DNA from: Chrysochromulina parva
Lineage: Eukaryota; Haptophyta; Prymnesiales; Chrysochromulinaceae
Direction: 5' to 3'
Length of the DNA stretch: 12,282 nucleotides
NCBI GenBank assembly: GCA_002887195.1
Contig: PJAB01001773.1
Location: forward strand, 1-12,282
In this document: piece after piece, positions 3,032 through 12,282 of the stretch
Layout: every line of letters starts with the position of its first letter
Numbering within the stretch: position 1 is the stretch's first letter
The notes under the pieces: generated by a model
Database searches by the model: none
Told to the model about the DNA's origin: nothing
The model's input: only the letters and a program-made list of their open reading frames with translations
Position numbers and translations under genes: made by a program

Positions 3032-3163
3032 GTCGGAGATTGGAAGTTTCTTGGAAGGATGACGCCCGCACTCACTCAGCACAACCATCTGATCTCGTGC
3101 CTGAAGAGCAGTCAATTGATAGACTCTTCATCATTCACTACCGCGAGGTATTGACGAATTCGG
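3032..3163. promoter_or_regulatory. Head-to-head (bidirectional) promoter region
   Basis: Only 132 bp separate the lumen-protein ATG (3031, minus) from the TPR-protein ATG (3164, plus), so both 5' UTRs and core promoters must lie here or overlap the genes. No canonical TATA box is visible. The clearest structure is TGAAGAG (3102-3108) facing CTCTTCA (3124-3130), a 7-bp perfect inverted repeat around a 15-nt AT-rich spacer with CAATTG at its centre. A symmetric element in a shared promoter could serve both directions. Confidence 0.5.
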
Positions 3164-4321
3164 ATGTCCGACGACGCCTCGGAAGACGACGTGCGAAGGG
3201 ACCTTCCATCGGCCTCGATCGTCAAGGCCAAGTACCGTGCGGATGGGGCACCCGAGTTCGATGCTGCCGACTTCAAGGAGATGGAGGCCCGCGCGCGTGG
3301 GCCAGACGTGCTGACGCCGCAGGAGATGGCAATCGTCCTCGAGGCCAAGGAGGAGGGCAATGCCAAGTTCAAGGCTGGCCGTGTAGAGGAGGCCTGCCAG
3401 AAATACAACTGCGCTCTTCAGACCTATGCTAATCGGCCTGGCGGCACACCCGATCAGCGCCGTGAAAAGAGCAAGCTGTACGCCAACCGCGCCGAGTGCC
3501 TGCTGCGGCTCGAGCAATGGCAGGCGGCGGAGCAGGCAGCATCAAAGGCCATCCAGCTCGACGCGGACAATGTGAAGGCACACTACCGCCGTGCGCGCGC
3601 ACTCGAGGTACTTGGCGGCGATGAGCACCTCGAGGCAGCATTGGAGGCGCTGGGCCGCATCGAGGCTCGAGGCGGCATGGAACCAGAGTCGGAGAAGTTG
3701 CGCCGCCGGCTGCATGCAGCTCGTGACGAGCTGCGGCTCGTGCGCCGGCGCGACGCGGGCTGTCTCCGCAGGGCCTTCGTATCGGGTGACCTCAAGCTCA
3801 CACGTGAAGAGTACGCGTCCTCGACCTCAGCGAGCGCGTCGGTCGACGCGCCCGCGCCGGCGACCGTGCCGAGCTGGCAGCTCCCTATGATCTCCAAAGG
3901 AGCTGAGACGCAGCGCCGCTACCTGATCGACGTGTATCGCACCGCCGTCGAGGACGCGCGCCAGGCCGGCACGCCGGGCCGCGCTGCTCATGGTTTGGGC
4001 GCGCCGAGCTACTCGCCTGCGAGCTTGCTCATGGACTTTCTCATCTTCTGCAAGCTGCTCCGGGATCGCGGCGTGCTGCCGTCGGAGCCGCCGTGGGATT
4101 GGGATGCATTCCTGACGCAGGCGGCGCCCTTGCTACTCCGCCATTTCCACCCGGAGAAGTCGCAGCCGGCCGCGCTCTACGGCCCCGAGGCTGGCTCCGC
4201 CCGGGCGATTCGAGCGCTTGTGGCCATTATCTACGACTGCGCTGATGGCGGTGGCGGGAGCGGCGACGTGGACGGGAGCGGGAGCGGCGGTGACAGGGCT
4301 GGTGGCGTCGGCGTCGGCGGC

Positions 4322-4352
<31 letters not shown>

Positions 4353-4675
4353 ATGGCAATGGACGTGAGGAAGGCGGCGGTGAGGAAGGCGGCGGTAGCT
4401 TGGCTGGACGCAGCAGCAGCGCACGATCAACCAAGCAACCAACCAACAAACGGCGCACCACGTCGCGTTCTTTTGGGGAGCTGCGTGAAGAGTGGATGCG
4501 CGCCGTTGGTTACGTCGACCGGGCCGGTGGTGACGGTGACGAGGACTCGTCTGTGGCGCCACGCCTTCACCTACTTAGCTTTGATCGCAGCCCAGCGATG
4601 TTCAATGACGTGGGCGGCCTCCTTCCATGGCGCCGCCTGCTGAACGATCTTGCACAGGCTACGGGCCGTTTGTAG
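3164..4675 (+). CDS. TPR co-chaperone-like protein with carboxylate clamp and unknown C-terminal domain (503 aa, single exon)
   Basis: The start is the first ATG after an in-frame TGA (about 3152); the stop is TAG at 4673-4675. An acidic N-terminus (MSDDASEDD) leads into three tetratricopeptide repeats at about residues 56-165. All five two-carboxylate-clamp positions are present with Hop-like spacing: K62 and N66 in TPR1, N108 in TPR2, K138 and R142 in TPR3. In TPR1/TTC4/Hop-type proteins this clamp binds the C-terminal EEVD of Hsp90 or Hsp70, so a cytosolic co-chaperone role is likely. Residues about 236-360 and 434-503 form a second conserved-looking region (WQLPMISKGAETQRRYLID, DFLIFCKLLRDRGVLP, ending FNDVGGLLPWRRLLNDL) that I do not recognise. 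It is split by a low-complexity Gly/Ser/Glu linker (361-433). There is no J, PPIase or CS domain. The Gly run is GGC-rich and probably length-variable. Confidence 0.82.
4245..4395 (+). repeat. GGC-rich low-complexity tract coding poly-Gly linker
   Basis: Imperfect GGC/GGT/GGG codons encode residues about 361-410 of the TPR protein, including an uninterrupted run of twelve Gly (residues 385-396) and two GREEGGGEEGGG-like copies. It divides the unknown C-terminal region into two parts and behaves like a disordered spacer. Confidence 0.7.
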
Positions 4676-5283: not shown

Positions 5284-8200
5284 CTATCCGTGGGCCAGAA
5301 TGTGCACGGCGTTGTTGAGCTGGGTGGTGCGCGTATGGAGCGCGACGGTGATCCGGTTGGCAAAGTGGGTGGAGGCGCTCTCCTCCGAGTGGCCGATGAG
5401 CATGCACTCGCGCAGCCAGTTGATATCCTCGGCCCTCTGAAGCTCGGGAATGCCCGTCGAGAGCATGAGCTGGAAGAGGTTGATGAACTCGTTCGCGTGC
5501 GCACGGATGACGTTGTACGCCCGGCCGCACAGGTCACTGAAGCGCGCGTAGTCATCCGCGCCCTTCTCTCCAAGCACATACGCAAAGTCGGGCGTGAACA
5601 CGAAGGGGGCGCGCTCACGCCTGATGCCAAACTTCGACTTGAAGTTGCCCAAAAAGTGGCCAAAGTCGATGTGGAAGAGGTGGCCTGTGCGTGCGAGCAT
5701 GATGTTGTCATTATGCCTGTCGCCGATGCCCATGACATACGTGGCAACGCAGTAGCCCGCGAGCGAGACTAGGAAGGTGTCGACCGCCCGGCGGTACGCG
5801 TCGGGCGTCGGGTTGTGTTCGCGCAGGTACATAGCCATCGGTTCCTTGGAGAAGGCGCCGCTGGCGCCACCCGAGTAAGTCTTGGTGATGTCTGCTGTAG
5901 TCGTCGAGTTGAGTACCACCTCGATGAAGCCGAGCTCGTTGCCCGTGGCGACGCACCGATAGGCCGAGAGCTGCAGATCGAGCCCCGCGCGCTCCCAGCG
6001 ACGCTCCATGATGCGCAGGATCTGGAGCGTGAGCTGGTCCTGGCGCAGGTCGTCGCCGCACTTGAAGATGACGTACAGGTCGGCACCGATTGGGTCGGCG
6101 TTCGAAAAGACGAGCCAGAGCGGAACCTTCTTTGAGTCCATCGTCTTGCACTTCTCGATGCGAAGCCCGGAGCACTCGAAGCGCGGCGAGAGCGGCAGCG
6201 TGAATTTGAGTGGGAACGCGACCTTGGCGAGCTCGGCTTGGAGCGCCCGCTTGCGCTCAGGCTTTCGGATGGTCTTAACGAGCTCGGCCGAGGCGACGAG
6301 CATGGACTCAACGCGGCACTGCAGCTCGAGCTCCGACCGTTGCTCTCCACAGCAGCGCAGGTACTCCTGCAGCAGCAGCCCGAAGCGCTCGCACACCTCG
6401 GGCGCGTGCATCCCTGCCTTGAGGCACCAAAAGAACTGGTGGCCAACTTGGTGCGGCGACGAGAGTGCGCGGCGCAGCAGGAAGCGTGCGAGTGCCGAGT
6501 CGTGCCGCGCCTCATACTTGAGCACCTGCATGCAATGAGGGGCACAATCAGCATGCACTCATCGAGAGGGAGCGCCTCATACTTGAGCACCTGCACGAGC
6601 TGCAGCACGTACAACTCGAGGTCGGTGTCCGAAAAGTCCTCGAGGCATCCTACGGCATACTCGCGGATGCGTGCGTCCGCAAACTTAGCATCGAGCAGCT
6701 CGAGTGCAGCCACCGGCTTGAGCGGCGCCCAACGGCCAAGCAGCGCATGCATCTCGGCGACCTGGCGGTGATCTGCCCATGAGATGCTCTGCAGGAACTT
6801 GGGTAGCGCGATGGGCGACGAGAGGATGAAGTGCCGGTGCGTCCAGAGGATCTGCTTGTCATCTTGCGTGAGGTCGGCGAGAGGATCCTGCTCGATGAGT
6901 ACCTTGAGCCGCTTGATCACACCGGGCGATGGCATGCGCTGCGCGTCCGCGCCGCCGCCGCCGCCGGCCTCGGCGACCGCGAGCGGGCGAGGTAGGACGA
7001 GGGGCGCTACGAAGTTCTCGAATTGGACAAAGAGCACCGGCGTCTCAGACCCGTACGTGGACACGTTCTCGGTCGCCGCTCCGATCGGGTTTGCCTCGGC
7101 GCCTGGCCAGAGGCGCAGCTGGTACACTCCGGAGGCGAGCCGATTCTCGTGGTCGTACAGGGGCAGCCCCACCCATCCGAGCGGCACGGGCGTGAGCTCC
7201 CTACGAGCTCCGATGTGATCTCGCGTGACCTCCCTACGAGCGCTGGCGGGCCGGCCGTACACGGTGAAGCAAGCCCGCCCCGCCTGGGGAGCGTGGCACA
7301 CGGGTAGGTCGAAGGCGAGCCATTCATTCCACTGCGGGTTGGAGCCTTCATCGGCGCTGAGCAGGCTTGTCTGGCGCGGGGCGCACAGCGGCACGCCGCC
7401 ATGGTACAGTGCCGCGCCGACGTGCAGCGACCACGTGGATAGGGCGGCAGCCGCCCGGCCCTTGACGAACCAGGTGAGGAGCTGGGCGGCGGCGCGCATG
7501 TTCTCAAGCGCCACGATGCGAATGCGCAGCTTCGTATGCGGCGAGAGCGCCAACACAGAAGGGAAAGCCGACGGATTGAAGGGGACATTGAGTGGCGGTA
7601 GCGGCACGTGTTGCGAGGCGGGCGGCGGCGGCGCTGGCGGCAGTGGCGGTGCAGAGAGCCACGGGTGTGGGAGGAGGCGCAGCTGTATCTCCTGGGAGCG
7701 CTTGAGGCAGTAGCGCACCGTCGAGTAGTCGATCAACTCTCCGCCGACGAGATACTCATTCACGCCCAGGAACTTGAGCACCATCTGCTCGGGTCTGAGC
7801 GACTCATCCTTGAGGGCGCGCACATAGTGGCCGTGCGCGAGGGCTCGCAGCTCGGAGACCTTTTGGCTCTTGGTGGCCATGTAGCCCTTGGCAATGTCCT
7901 GGCCGAGGAGGAAGATCTTGACCAGGAAGCGCGAGGGGAGCGTGGCAAGCGGTGGCGTCGGGTCGGTGAACGTGGGCAGCTCGCGGTTCACCTTGGCTGC
8001 CTCGTACTCAGCAAGCACCGTCGGGCGCAGCAGCATCATCGCTCGCCGGAAGTGCAGCACCTCCATCGACTCGGAGGACCAAACGAGAGGATGGCCGAGC
8101 AATGCATGCACGACCTCCTCCGCCTCGGCCAGCGGAGGAACGAGGGCGTCGCGGTACTCGGCGGCGTCCGTGGCACGGCACAGCCGCAGGATGGGCACAC

Positions 8201-11200
8201 GCCGGTGCTCTAGGAAGGATCGCACATACTGGGCCGTCTGCAGCATCGCCTTGCCCCCGGACGAAAGAACTTCCCCCGTTGTGGGCACCTGCAACACCCA
8301 GCCACTCTCGCTAGGCGAGCCCTCGGAGGCGCCCGGACCCGCGCCATGGCCGAGACCGCCGGTGCGCGCCGCATGGCCGAGGACGGCGAGAACAGCGCGG
8401 CCGATGCTGTGCTCGTGCGTGAACGTGTGCAGGCGCGAGGCGCCTTCAGGCAGCAGCACCCGGCACAAGAACGTGGGCGGCAGCGGCTCGCCGCTGTTGG
8501 CCACCTCGGCCGCAAGTGCGCCGCCCATTGTCTTGGAATGGCGCAGCCTCCGGTAGAGATGCTCAGCTTGGGTCTCATCGATCAGGCAGCGCGCCTTTGA
8601 GGGCCAATCTTGCGCCTCCTGCTCGGCGATCACCGGAGCGAGCTTACGCGACGGGAGGACGAAATCTCGCGAGGTCTCACCCACGAGCTCGGAGGTGAGC
8701 TCACCCGACAGCTGGCCCTTCTTGATGTGAACGTACATCAGGCGAGCGAGCAGAACAATCAGCTTTCGAGCGCCTGCATCCTCGGCGAGGCTGAGCGACG
8801 AGAGCTCGGCATACGAGATAACGCCCACATACGCGGGCGTCGCGCCGAGCACGTCCGCCTCGCGCCCCCCTCCCTGGAAGAGGGGAACGTAGCCGAGCGC
8901 CGTGCCCGGGCGCAGCGTGCGCGTCACGGGCGCCTGGGTGCCGTCATGGGCACGGGCACCGACAGGACGATGGTGCACCTCAAGAGAGCCTTCGAGCAGG
9001 AGGGCCACGAAGCTCGCCTCTTCCCCCGCCTTGAGGAGCGGCGAGCCCACGCCGAGGCGCACGACCGCGAGGGCGCGGGAGAGCAGCGCGAGCTCCGAGA
9101 GGCTGAGCTCGCCGCGCATCCAGTCCGCCTTGCGCTCCGCCAGGCGCAGCAGGCGCAGCGCCTGGGCGGTGGGCGTGGGCGAGGGCAGGAGATTGCGAAG
9201 GAGATTGCGAAGCATGGGCACCGTGCTGCCACCGCCTGCCGCCGCCGCAAGCTCGGCTTCTCGCTCGTCCCTGTTTAGGGCATCTCCCTCGCTGTGGAAC
9301 AGGCTTGCACTCCCACCAAGGGGCCTGGAGGGGCTCCGCCCCCCTCGTCGCTCGTCTTTCGGGAAGGAGCTTGCACTCACACGCCCGGCGGCACAGTCGG
9401 CGCCTCCGAGCTCCAGGTGTGCGTGGGTCACGGCCGTGGTACGCATCCGCACTATGAATGTTTCGAGGGGCAGGCAGGCCGCACGCTGCGAGGCGCCAGA
9501 TGAGTGGAATCTCTGCACGAGCAACGACGCCGAGAGCGGCTGCTCGTCACTCCCACTGTGAACATTCCCAGGCGGCTCGTCACTCCCAGGACGGTCGGCC
9601 CCGGCGGGAATGGACACGTCACTCCCACTGTGAACATTCCCAGGGCGGTCGGCCCCGGCGGGAATGGACATGTCATCGGCGGGCGCGGCGGCGGCAGCAG
9701 CGTCGGCGTAGGCGGCGGCCATCGCACCGAGGAGCGTGTGGGCGAGGGCTGGTGTCTTGGATGCGATGCGGGGCAAGTCGGCCAACGAGAGCATGCCCAC
9801 TATCCCGTCCTCAAGAGCGACGATGTCACTCAGTCGCGCTGGTGCCGTTGAGAAGAGAGCAGCCTCGCCTACGAACTCCGTCGCACCGCGCACCACTAGC
9901 TCCCCGCTGTCAGCTTGGCCGAACTCAGCACACGAGCCCGAGAGTATAAGCCCCACCCACATTGCCGCCTCACCCTGTGCAAAGAGCACCTCGCCTGCGA
10001 GGAAGGGCGCCGCGGCAAGCGCCGTCGTGAGCGCCTGGGTGAGCTCCGGGCTGAGGGTACTGAGCCAGCCGCCGCCGGCGGCCATGCCGCCGCCGGCCAT
10101 GCCACCCGCCATGCCACCCGCCATGCCGCCCGCCATGCCGTGACCGATCTGAAGACCGATGAGATACTCAAGCACCTTCTCCGACGTGAGCGAGGTAGGC
10201 AAGGACGAGTACGTGCGCACAAGCGCGTCGACCCCTCTGCGCGCCGAGGTGATGGGCACGAGGGGTGGTGATGTCGTGGGCAAGCTGACAATCGCATTGG
10301 TCGACGACATCGGGGAGGCGCTCACGTCGGGAGCTTTGATTGAGCGCGGTGCTCGCGTCGCGTCGGGCTCGTTGGACGATTTGGACAGCTTGACCTGCTC
10401 ACAGAGGCGGGAGGGCGGCGAGCGCAAGGATGGGCTCACTTGATGGATCAAGCAGGTACTAGGCAGGAATGGACCTGGCAGCGCCTCACCTTGGGGGTAC
10501 CTGAGGTGCGGCGCGAGGGGTCGTCGAGGTCCTTGCGCCGGGTGGACGCTTTCGATGCCTTGCGCAGCAGTGACTCCTGCTTCTTGAGGTCCAAAGGTGT
10601 ATTGGCGTCCCACCCTTGCTGCGCCTGCTTGGCAAGCAACTCACGCACGCCATGCTGTCGCTGCTGCTCACTTACGCGCGAGAAGTCGATGCCATCGGAC
10701 TCAAACTGCTTCTCGAGCGCGGCATTTGCGAGCTGCGTGTTCAGCTTCGTCGCGAGCGTTGGATTGGACTTCTTGAGCCGCTCGAGCTGTGTGAACGGCA
10801 CGACTGCGAGATACCCGTCCTCGGATGCCACAACCGACACGTTCCGCGTACCGCCCGAGAATAGGCTCATCTCGCCGATGATGTCGCCAATGCCACGCAA
10901 CGCGCCCACTGGCACATCACCGATCATCGGCGTGAGGACGCCCTTTAGCAGCACGCCGAAAAAGGTGGCCGGCTCGCCTTGAAGAAGGACCGTCTCGCCC
11001 TCCTTGAAGTAGAGAATGGTGAGCTCGTGCACGAGGTCGAGCAGTTGTTGGAAGTCGAAGTCCCTAAAGTACTTGCTGCACTCCTGCGTCTTTGCGAGCA
11101 GCTCGATGGCCTGCAGGCGGCAAAGGATGGGATGTGTGACATTAGCCATCATCGAGGGACGAGGGAGCAGCACTGAAGCCCACCTGCTCTTCGGACACGT

Positions 11201-11237
11201 CGCTCATCTCGGCTGAGAGCGGCATTACGAGCGGCAT
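5284..11237 (-). CDS. Class I phosphoinositide 3-kinase fused to three cyclic-nucleotide-binding domains (four exons, 1906 aa)
   Basis: Exons 11237-11184, 11110-10490, 10394-6591 and 6525-5284 (TAG), all joined in phase 0. Domain order: CNB1 (about 30-140), CNB2 (about 336-450), CNB3 (about 650-780), an ABD-like region (about 864-965, with YVRSFLEHRRVPILRL), Ras-binding domain (about 1046-1135, MVLKFLGVNEYLV), Pro-rich linker (1140-1160), C2 (about 1180-1355, ALYHGGVPLC and NPQWNEWL), helical/PIK domain (about 1386-1540, ILWTHRHF, VQVLKYE) and lipid kinase (about 1600-1906). Catalytic residues are intact: ATP-binding K1648 (IFKCGDDLRQD), GDRHNDN at 1761-1767 and DFG at 1780-1782. The activation loop KSKFGIRRERAPF (1789-1801) has the basic boxes of class I enzymes, which make PI(3,4,5)P3 from PI(4,5)P2. 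The N-terminal CNB fusion is not part of any class I architecture I know; it suggests cAMP or cGMP control of the kinase. Start choice among three in-frame ATGs (11237, 11225, 11207) is uncertain. Confidence 0.85.
6507..6530. repeat. 24-bp perfect direct repeat, copy at the 3' splice junction
   Basis: The + strand 24-mer from GCGCCTCATA to GAGCACCTGCA is identical at 6507-6530 and 6572-6595, offset 65 bp, equal to the intron length. This copy spans the acceptor AG and the first codons of exon 4 (VLKYEA). Confidence 0.95.
6526..6590 (-). other. Intron 3 of the PI3K gene (65 nt, phase 0), flanked by a 24-bp direct repeat
   Basis: Donor GTGCAG|GTGCTC (G at 6590); acceptor ATTGCATGCAG|GTGCTC (last G at 6526). 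CTGAT about 22 nt upstream of the acceptor can serve as branch site. Splicing restores LQLVQ|VLKYEARHDS, the conserved helical-domain motif, and switches to the frame of the kinase domain. The first 20 nt of the intron plus four exon bases repeat at the downstream junction (6572-6595 and 6507-6530). Confidence 0.88.
6572..6595. repeat. 24-bp perfect direct repeat, copy at the 5' splice junction
   Basis: Partner of the repeat at 6507-6530. This copy spans the end of exon 3 (…TGCAG) and the first 19 nt of the intron, so the intron's 5' end would encode VLKYEA if retained. Confidence 0.95.
9044..9389 (-). other. Linker between CNB2 and CNB3 (part), low complexity
   Basis: Residues about 561-676 of the fusion protein begin with Ser/Arg/Gly-rich sequence of no recognisable fold and enter CNB3 at about residue 650 (SLSELALLSRALAVVRLG). 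There is no in-frame stop, and the surrounding domains are in the same frame, so this is coding and not an intron. Confidence 0.5.
9546..9668 (-). repeat. Coding minisatellite in the PI3K fusion protein
   Basis: Encodes residues 468-508, where SIPAGADRPG occurs twice (468-477, 486-495) and GNVHSGSD twice (477-484, 501-508). At DNA level, a CGGTCGGCCCCGGCGGGAAT block and a CACTCCCACTGTGAACATTC block each occur twice, almost perfectly. It lies between CNB2 and CNB3, keeps the frame and probably varies in copy number. Confidence 0.8.
10065..10136 (-). repeat. 12-bp coding repeat, Met-Ala-Gly-Gly units
   Basis: Residues 312-335 of the fusion protein are four MAGG units followed by a degenerate GGMAAGGG. 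DNA units are near-identical 12-mers (GCCATGCCACCC type on the + strand). The tract precedes CNB2 and is likely a flexible linker. Confidence 0.8.
10395..10489 (-). other. Intron 2 of the PI3K gene (95 nt, phase 0)
   Basis: Donor CCCAAG|GTGAGG (G at 10489); acceptor CCTCTGTGAGCAG|GTC (last G at 10395) after a pyrimidine-rich stretch. Splicing joins TSGTPK to VKLSKSSNEP and moves from the exon 2 frame to the exon 3 frame, which then stays open for 1268 codons. Without splicing, exon 2 would end at a TAG at 10448-10450. Confidence 0.85.
10490..11110 (-). other. Exon 2: first cyclic-nucleotide-binding domain (CNB1) and basic linker
   Basis: Exon 2 encodes residues 19-225. CNB1 shows FKEGETVLLQGEPATFFGVLLKG, the usual first half of the CNB beta-barrel, and a phosphate-binding cassette IIGEMSLFSGGTRNVSV with G97, E98 and R107. 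The Glu-Arg spacing of nine equals that of PKA regulatory subunits. Glu and Arg contact the ribose and cyclic phosphate, so this site is predicted to bind cAMP or cGMP. A Lys/Arg/Gln-rich segment (about 150-225) follows. Confidence 0.8.
11111..11183 (-). other. Intron 1 of the PI3K gene (73 nt, phase 0)
   Basis: Donor GAAGAGCAG|GTGGGC (G at 11183); acceptor ATCCTTTGCCGCCTGCAG|GCC (last G at 11111) with a good pyrimidine tract and a GCTAATG branch-like site. It joins MSDVSEEQ to AIELLAKTQ. Alternative: no intron and a start at the ATGATG at 11152-11147, which gives MMANVTHPILCRLQAIELL. I prefer the intron because of the strong splice signals and the acidic MSDVSEEQ terminus. Confidence 0.65.
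11217..11237. repeat. 12-bp duplication at the PI3K start codon
   Basis: GAGCGGCAT on the + strand occurs at 11217-11225 and 11229-11237, so the minus strand reads ATGCCGCTC twice and gives MPLVMPLSAEM. It supplies two alternative in-frame starts before the ATG at 11207. Confidence 0.7.
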
Positions 11238-11502
11238 TGAAGTCGTGTGAACGACAAGGGCCGTCCAATCGTTGACAAGGGAAGACAAGGCAAGTCAAGA
11301 GTCAAGTCAGTCTTTACAAGTCAAATCGTCGCGGTCGAGTAAACCTCTCCTCTCCCAAAATTGCTCGCAAAAATGATGACGATGAGGTGTGAAGAGATGG
11401 GCTGTGAAACGTGTTCATAGGACTTTTCGCGCGACCCTGTCGGCTTCGTGCCCTGCGGAGCAGCGGGAGGTGGTGGTTCATCAGGTGGCCTGAATTCCTA
11501 TA
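11238..11502. promoter_or_regulatory. Divergent intergenic region between PI3K (-) and helicase (+)
   Basis: 265 bp carry the 5' regions of two diverging genes. The segment 11274-11326 is rich in CAAGTCAA/GACAAGG words (GTCAAG-type units at irregular spacing). CCTATA stands just before the helicase ATG (11496-11501), too close to act as a TATA box for that start. No other clear signal is visible. Confidence 0.45.

Positions 11503-12282
<780 letters not shown>

Follow-up and report, generated by a model that had tools for sequence, protein, structure and literature searches.

The question raised by a 12,282-nucleotide stretch of the haptophyte Chrysochromulina parva genome (contig PJAB01001773.1; the whole stretch is referred to as the window) is whether a single gene joins cyclic-nucleotide-binding (CNB) domains to a phosphoinositide 3-kinase (PI3K) and, if so, whether the encoded enzyme would be switched by a cyclic nucleotide. 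Control of class I PI3Ks normally falls to Ras proteins and regulatory subunits on separate chains, whereas cyclic nucleotides use other effectors. The gene in question lies on the minus strand at positions 5284 to 11237 (start at 11237, stop ending at 5284), and its four exons specify 1906 amino acids and a stop codon. We propose, as the reading to which we lean with moderate confidence, that the product is a class I-like haptophyte PI3K that incorporates an array of three CNB domains and would be gated by a cyclic nucleotide at CNB1 and CNB2, with CNB3 acting as a structural coupler.

The fused gene and its relatives

The three introns of the gene (11111 to 11183, 10395 to 10489, and 6526 to 6590, comprising 73, 95, and 65 bases, respectively) are all of the GT-AG type and in phase 0, and the spliced frame rebuilt from these junctions, combined with Pfam matches, yielded the domain order CNB1-CNB2-CNB3-ABD-like-RBD-C2-PIK-kinase. 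An earlier interpretation made from the letters of the window (here called the sequence-only reading) had placed three CNB domains together with RBD, C2, helical, and kinase domains in one spliced frame, with which this reconstruction agrees, and its residue numbering (G97, E98, R107, K1648, DRHNDN, and DFG) was reproduced. Because CNB2, CNB3, the RBD, the C2 domain, and part of the PIK domain are located within a single open exon (exon 3), the joining of CNB domains to the PI3K is independent of splicing. Judged from base composition, which predicts stops at 2.1% of codons, the chance of this exon remaining open over 1268 codons is approximately 1.6e-12, and its G+C content was lowest at the second codon position in 11 of 12 100-codon blocks, the exception being the first block.

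Relatives were sought in protein searches, each of which scored the best 7986 to 7994 candidates. When the N-terminal 1150 residues were used as the query, one protein was returned, P0001, which matches 46% of the query at 99% identity; as this query found P0001 alone, conservation was traced through the PI3K half, for which an RBD-C2-PIK query returned 13 proteins. The fusion of CNB domains to a PI3K is also present in P0003 (1528 amino acids, 53% identity), P0006 (1775 amino acids, 46%), and P0008 (1941 amino acids, 52% over 72%), in which Pfam recognized two, three, and three CNB stretches, respectively. P0006 and P0008 each harbor CNB1 (its second half alone in P0006), CNB2, CNB3, and the PI3K core in one protein. 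P0001 starts before CNB3 and contains CNB3 through the first part of the PIK domain, and P0002, P0004, P0005, and P0007 start downstream of the CNB position and are uninformative regarding these domains. No CNB domain was present in P0009 to P0013 in precomputed Pfam lists, and rescanning of P0009 and P0010 likewise detected none. A search with P0006 as the query returned P0006, P0008, and P0003 and no further relatives, and none were found in viral contigs.

As a separate observation, intron 3 (minus strand) is flanked by a 24-base direct repeat spanning both splice sites, as if part of an exon had been duplicated in tandem to give rise to the intron, and its 65 bases occur once in the genome. 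An assembly duplication was set aside as the source of this intron, given that P0001, a JGI protein with approximately 1% differences, reads through the same stretch, in its case in the wrong frame.

A tree of 13 rows, which included a Vps34-like protein of the same genome and omitted P0001 (near-identical) and P0012 (kinase cut short), was built from sequences trimmed by eye to the core. The window protein and P0002 to P0008 (8 of the 13 rows) form a 100/100 clade containing the haptophyte Calcidiscus leptoporus, inside which the window protein and P0003 share one branch and P0006 and P0008 another, each again at 100/100. This grouping, that of a single gene, supports a haptophyte affiliation of the alga. 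All four clade rows that reach upstream (the window protein, P0003, P0006, and P0008) carry CNB domains, the other four being too short, and, as the CNB-bearing rows fall on two 100/100 branches, the fusion predates their split unless it arose twice. Deeper forks are incompletely resolved, with a very long Vps34-like branch, and the tree is therefore used for the clade alone.

Where aligned, the CNB domains of the window protein are 37 to 54% identical to those of P0003, P0006, and P0008 (CNB1, 53 to 54%; CNB2, 37 to 45%; CNB3, 49 to 50%), the values for CNB1 being 54% against P0006 and 53% against P0008 with 74 and 96, respectively, of its 134 residues aligned. The two linkers between the CNB domains reach 21 to 32% and the one after CNB3 31 to 42%, and the corresponding figures within the core are 44 to 55% for the RBD, 50 to 57% for the C2 domain, and 70 to 77% for the PIK and kinase domains. 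CNB1 and CNB3 have thus been held near the level of the RBD and CNB2 slightly lower, with all three above the inter-CNB linkers.

CNB cassettes and a proposed nucleotide switch

The borders of the three CNB domains, the ABD-like domain, the RBD, and the C2 domain were chosen by us, the Pfam match being narrower for CNB1 (residues 52 to 133) and the RBD (residues 1094 to 1133). All three CNB stretches exceeded the family cut-off in a whole-genome scan (E values of 7.7e-10, 2.3e-9, and 1.0e-5), and exon 3 matched Pfam cNMP_binding with an E value of 3.5e-17 across two stretches (CNB2 and CNB3 together); CNB3 of P0001, scanned in its own protein, fell under the cut-off (23.8 versus 27.5 bits; E value of 4.5e-5). 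PKGs were the nearest solved chains to CNB1 (whole-chain E value of 5.2e-12; best single stretch, 0.0014), and PKG structures likewise came first for four-copy profiles of CNB2 (1.9e-18; best single stretch, 1.3e-4) and CNB3 (7.2e-17; best single stretch, 4.5e-6), the whole-chain E values summing several CNB domains of one PKG. Profile comparison related CNB2 and CNB3 to each other with 98% probability.

The phosphate-binding cassette of CNB1 was described as intact in the sequence-only reading, and its Gly-Glu and Arg were indeed found at residues 97 to 107. This Gly-Glu...Arg signature is kept in all three available copies of CNB1 (the window protein, P0006, and P0008, the first halves of CNB1 in the latter two being cut or interrupted) and in all four copies of CNB2. 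A feature which the sequence-only reading did not report is that the CNB3 cassette is Gly-Tyr...Arg in each of its four copies (the window protein, P0003, P0006, and P0008). The cassette Glu is the ribose-binding residue, and, with CNB3 lacking it, just CNB1 and CNB2 of the three domains look competent.

In the mechanism that we propose, cAMP, cGMP, or a related nucleotide would bind CNB1 and CNB2 and shift the helices following each CNB barrel. This shift, passed via CNB3, would alter the hold of the N-terminal array on the ABD-like/RBD/C2 face of the core, and the altered hold would either relieve inhibition or present the core to Ras and the membrane, upon which the core would convert PIP2 to PIP3. 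CNB3, without its cassette Glu, would represent a fixed coupler between the sensors and the core and would perform, in cis, part of the role which p85-type subunits perform in trans. Both ends of such a route are encoded by the genome, which may be incomplete and in which matches were counted by exon rather than by gene: 10 nucleotide-cyclase, 11 phosphodiesterase (PDE), and 2 PTEN_C2 matches were obtained. The fuller claim, namely, that haptophytes possess a self-contained, cyclic-nucleotide-gated class I PI3K combining in one polypeptide a nucleotide effector and a p85-type regulatory subunit between cAMP or cGMP and PIP3, is advanced more tentatively, as a possibility that falls somewhat short of an expectation.

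A number of points weigh against nucleotide gating of a class I-like enzyme. Ligand binding and gating are both inferred from sequence features, and the selectivity position that follows the cassette Arg, which is Ala in PKA and Thr or Ser in PKG, is occupied by Asn in CNB1 and by Leu in CNB2 and thus singles out neither cAMP nor cGMP as the ligand. Among the 30 best other CNB domains of the genome (drawn from 101 matches, which include the three of the window, and assessed as text for a Gly-Glu and an Arg separated by 5 to 10 residues), the pattern was kept in 21 and lost in 9, such that an intact cassette is common in this genome and no proof of function. No inhibitory element was recognized by eye between the CNB domains and the core. 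The RBD match is modest, being the weakest of the core domains, and a profile reached the p110 gamma RBD with an E value of just 0.03; in addition, a whole-genome PI3K_rbd scan gave no match and missed the CNB-PI3K gene itself, and is thus silent on a second RBD-type PI3K. AlphaFold models of exon 2 with P0006 and P0008 (mean pLDDT of 49.6) and of a 1200-residue part of exon 3 together with seven relatives (mean pLDDT of 41.3) were both too poor for contacts or fold searches.

Several of these observations would also fit the principal alternative, according to which the fusion is real and the CNB array is structural, serves in docking, or senses another small molecule rather than cyclic nucleotides; nucleosides, the ligand of trypanosomatid PKA, are one example. 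The cassette Glu of CNB3 has been lost in every copy although the domain is conserved, which makes a non-binding role already likely for CNB3, and both the non-standard residues after the cassette Arg in CNB1 and CNB2 and the 9 pattern losses among the best 30 other CNB domains point in the same direction. However, the Gly-Glu and Arg of CNB1 and CNB2 have been kept throughout despite the 37 to 54% identity of the domains, and the genome encodes cyclases and PDEs, which argue against this alternative; we consider an array that does not sense cyclic nucleotides doubtful, while according it appreciable weight.

The PI3K core and the region preceding it

The output half of the proposed nucleotide-gated enzyme contains the RBD, C2, PIK, and kinase domains of class I PI3Ks in their order, as recognized by Pfam. 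The p110 gamma alignment spans the catalytic Lys (K1648), DRHNDN, DFG, and the class I basic activation loop, bearing out the intact kinase motifs and class I loop of the sequence-only reading. The solved relatives of the kinase exon are all class I by name among the matches listed (60 of 147), with p110 gamma the best at 1e-107, in a list which many class I constructs fill and which holds no direct comparison with class II. For the C2-PIK part, the solved relatives among the exon 3 matches listed (60 of 108) are the p110 isoforms alpha, beta, delta, and gamma, and none of these matches had its best stretch in the CNB part. A Pfam scan of the chain detected neither a PX-C2 extension after the kinase, a class II trait, nor, unlike in PKG and Epac, a protein kinase or guanine nucleotide exchange factor (GEF) domain, and the Vps34 (class III) layout was also not matched. 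The kinase is consequently described here as class I-like, with 3-phosphorylation of PI(4,5)P2 and Ras binding regarded as putative activities.

These data also bear on the possibility that the enzyme is class II-like or an undivided class I/II PI3K producing PI3P or PI(3,4)P2, with the CNB domains being regulatory, a view which is compatible with cyclic-nucleotide gating. Such an assignment would accommodate the unmatched p85-binding family PF02192, and bikont homologues with RBD, C2, PIK, and kinase domains only are treated as class I/II in the available part of PMC4617754. The alignment of the activation loop with p110 gamma across the basic stretch, the absence of a PX-C2 extension from the Pfam scan, and the class I names of the listed kinase-exon relatives (subject to the abundance of class I constructs noted above) argue against it, and we judge it unlikely.

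Whether the genome encodes other enzymes of this kind was approached through PI3K_C2, for which two matches were obtained, one in the CNB-PI3K gene and one in a Vps34-like gene on contig 2009. The latter gene specifies C2, PIK, and kinase domains but no RBD over the 728 residues covered by the scan, and its catalytic and activation loops are presumably those of class III. The PI3K_C2 scan suggests that the CNB-PI3K gene encodes the single class I-like PI3K of the genome, in which PI3_PI4_kinase gave 18 matches. Contig 2009 also carries a CNB domain (E value of 3.5e-18) at positions 101 to 349, on the strand opposite to the Vps34-like gene. The 101 CNB-domain matches in this 45-Mb genome, where some contigs carry three or four in one frame, suggest an expanded CNB repertoire.

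Upstream of the RBD, the sequence-only reading had proposed an ABD-like region which might contact the CNB domains in place of a p85-type partner. A conserved domain is present in the ABD position in five sequences (35 to 54% identical to the window protein outside P0001), followed by a strongly conserved linker (51 to 76%), and to that extent the proposal stands; its p85-binding character found no match. PF02192, the ABD family of class IA, was matched neither by exon 3 nor by any of the five members of the region alignment at E values up to 10, in a test subject to the HMMER filters, which discard the majority of weak matches. The available part of PMC4617754 assigns the acquisition of PF02192 by class IA to an ancestor of the animal lineage. 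Instead, PI3K_rbd was weakly matched by two of the five members (best E value of 0.0018). The member from the window gave no PI3K_rbd match, nor did the P0006 and P0008 pieces when rescanned at E values up to 1, and the better of the two matches must therefore lie in P0002 or P0003. The profile of the ABD-RBD region, which gave the E value of 0.03 cited above as its best, reached the RBD of p110 gamma alone (21 sequences in all), and P0010, whose source name begins 'Mayor' and presumably denotes the amoeba Mayorella, carries two PI3K_rbd stretches in a fresh scan. The low-confidence exon 3 model displays a strand-helix-strand pattern in the ABD-like region, which is suggestive at most. An identification as a proven p85-binding domain was rejected as unsupported by sequence, and we read the ABD-like region as a second domain of the ubiquitin-like type, located where an ABD would be.

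That the CNB1 exons, or all of the CNB domains, derive from a neighboring gene and that the fusion is an artefact of the gene model, which the sequence-only reading had named as the finding that would overturn it, is highly improbable, since, although exon 1 (18 codons) and intron 2 are supported by splice-site reading alone, the frame of CNB2 and CNB3 runs without splicing into the RBD, C2, and PIK domains, P0003, P0006, and P0008 display the same fusion (P0006 and P0008 with all three CNB domains, CNB1 by half in P0006, and the core in single predicted proteins), and P0001 spans CNB3 to the first part of the PIK domain.

Window features and comparison with known systems

The features of the CNB-PI3K gene are collected in Table 1. 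Elsewhere in the window, a divergent neighboring frame on the plus strand (11494 to 12282) encodes a DEAD-box helicase domain (E value of 3.4e-13) and runs into a 135-base AGC repeat, specifying polyserine, at the contig end. A 506-codon plus-strand frame (3155 to 4675) matched TPR weakly, with every hit under its Pfam cut-off, and contains a glycine-rich stretch derived from GGC-type repeats. A 211-codon frame (405 to 1040), for which no Pfam match was obtained, is followed just downstream by a nine-base tandem repeat of approximately five copies (1050 to 1097).

Table 1. Position of each feature of the CNB-PI3K gene in the window, with the basis of its assignment
Feature	Positions	Strand	Basis
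Exon 1, 18 codons, ATG at 11237	11184..11237	-	Splice model, without homology or RNA support
Exon 2, 207 codons, CNB1 and start of linker	10490..11110	-	Splice model, Pfam
Exon 3, open over all 1268 codons, encoding CNB2, CNB3, ABD-like, RBD, C2, and the start of PIK	6591..10394	-	
Exon 4, 413 codons plus stop, encoding the remainder of PIK and the kinase	5284..6525	-	Splice model, Pfam
CNB1, residues 22-155	10700..11101	-	Pfam cNMP_binding, E 7.8e-11 (exon 2); nearest solved chains are PKGs
CNB1 phosphate-binding cassette, residues 97-107, with Gly-Glu and Arg	10844..10876	-	
CNB2, residues 335-458	9696..10067	-	Pfam; profile finds PKG structures first
CNB2 cassette, residues 401-412, with Gly-Glu and Arg, one additional residue in window protein	9834..9869	-	
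CNB3, residues 645-785	8715..9137	-	E 1.0e-5; profile finds PKG structures first
CNB3 cassette, residues 726-736, Tyr replacing Glu, Arg present	8862..8894	-	
ABD-like domain, residues 862-970	8160..8486	-	Conserved in five sequences, without PF02192 match
RBD, residues 1041-1138	7656..7949	-	Pfam PI3K_rbd, E 2.5e-5, 24.8 bits against cut-off of 22
PI3K C2, residues 1176-1345	7035..7544	-	Pfam PI3K_C2, E 3.1e-18
PIK (helical), first part	6591..6914	-	Pfam PI3Ka, E 1.4e-35, completed in exon 4
PI3/4-kinase catalytic domain	5437..6072	-	Pfam PI3_PI4_kinase, E 1.9e-59
Catalytic loop DRHNDN, residues 1762-1767	5704..5721	-	
DFG (1780) with the basic activation loop of class I type, to residue 1801	5602..5667	-	Aligned to p110 gamma

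No description of a CNB-PI3K chain was encountered among the titles and abstract openings listed from an open-access library (with two of the listings giving 20 of 27 and 10 of 2,091 matches), a provisional result given that most subscription journals, as well as architecture databases, lie outside this scope, and one that fits the earlier suggestion that the domain order is undescribed. Two accounts of PI3K evolution (PMC4617754 and PMC3024228) make no mention of haptophytes, Emiliania, or cyclic nucleotides in their available parts, and the accessible portion of PMC2837644 lists cNMP_binding and PI3_PI4_kinase among the domains found with PX, not jointly in one protein. As far as the available text of PMC9138222 extends, the ten genes raised most strongly in Isochrysis galbana at 6 days relative to 12 days include some for proteins with cyclic-nucleotide-binding domains, without a link to PI3K. 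Colony formation in Phaeocystis globosa raises PI3K-Akt pathway genes and components of cAMP/cGMP-dependent kinases according to the expression study PMC6766888, whose available part does not mention cyclic-nucleotide-binding PI3Ks.

If the proposed gating is correct, the protein would represent a novel type of effector for cyclic nucleotides and a novel means of switching a PI3K, would offer a handle on haptophyte PIP3 signaling, and would constitute a natural design for a CNB array holding a lipid kinase. If it is also the sole class I-like PI3K, all of the PIP3 signaling of the alga would be under cyclic-nucleotide control.

Among known systems, the class I p110 alpha, beta, gamma, and delta enzymes share with the window protein the RBD-C2-PIK-kinase order, DRHNDN, DFG, the basic loop, and a further domain at the ABD position, whereas the window protein possesses three N-terminal CNB domains and no p85-binding Pfam match. 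The RBD-type PI3Ks P0009 to P0012 have the same RBD, C2, PIK, and kinase core, are 28 to 33% identical over the part searched, and lack CNB domains in the Pfam lists. Apicomplexan PKG and PKA regulatory subunits likewise carry tandem CNB domains with Gly-Glu...Arg, PKGs being nearest among solved chains to all three CNB domains, and apicomplexan PKG contains a mixture of intact and degenerate CNB domains, as does the window protein; in the latter, however, the predicted output is a lipid kinase rather than a protein kinase, and the residues adjacent to the cassette differ. In Epac and in Dictyostelium GbpC and GbpD, CNB domains are fused to an enzyme that belongs to the Ras/Rap-PI3K route, the output being a GEF (and, in GbpC, also a protein kinase), whereas in the window protein it is the PI3K itself that bears the CNB domains.

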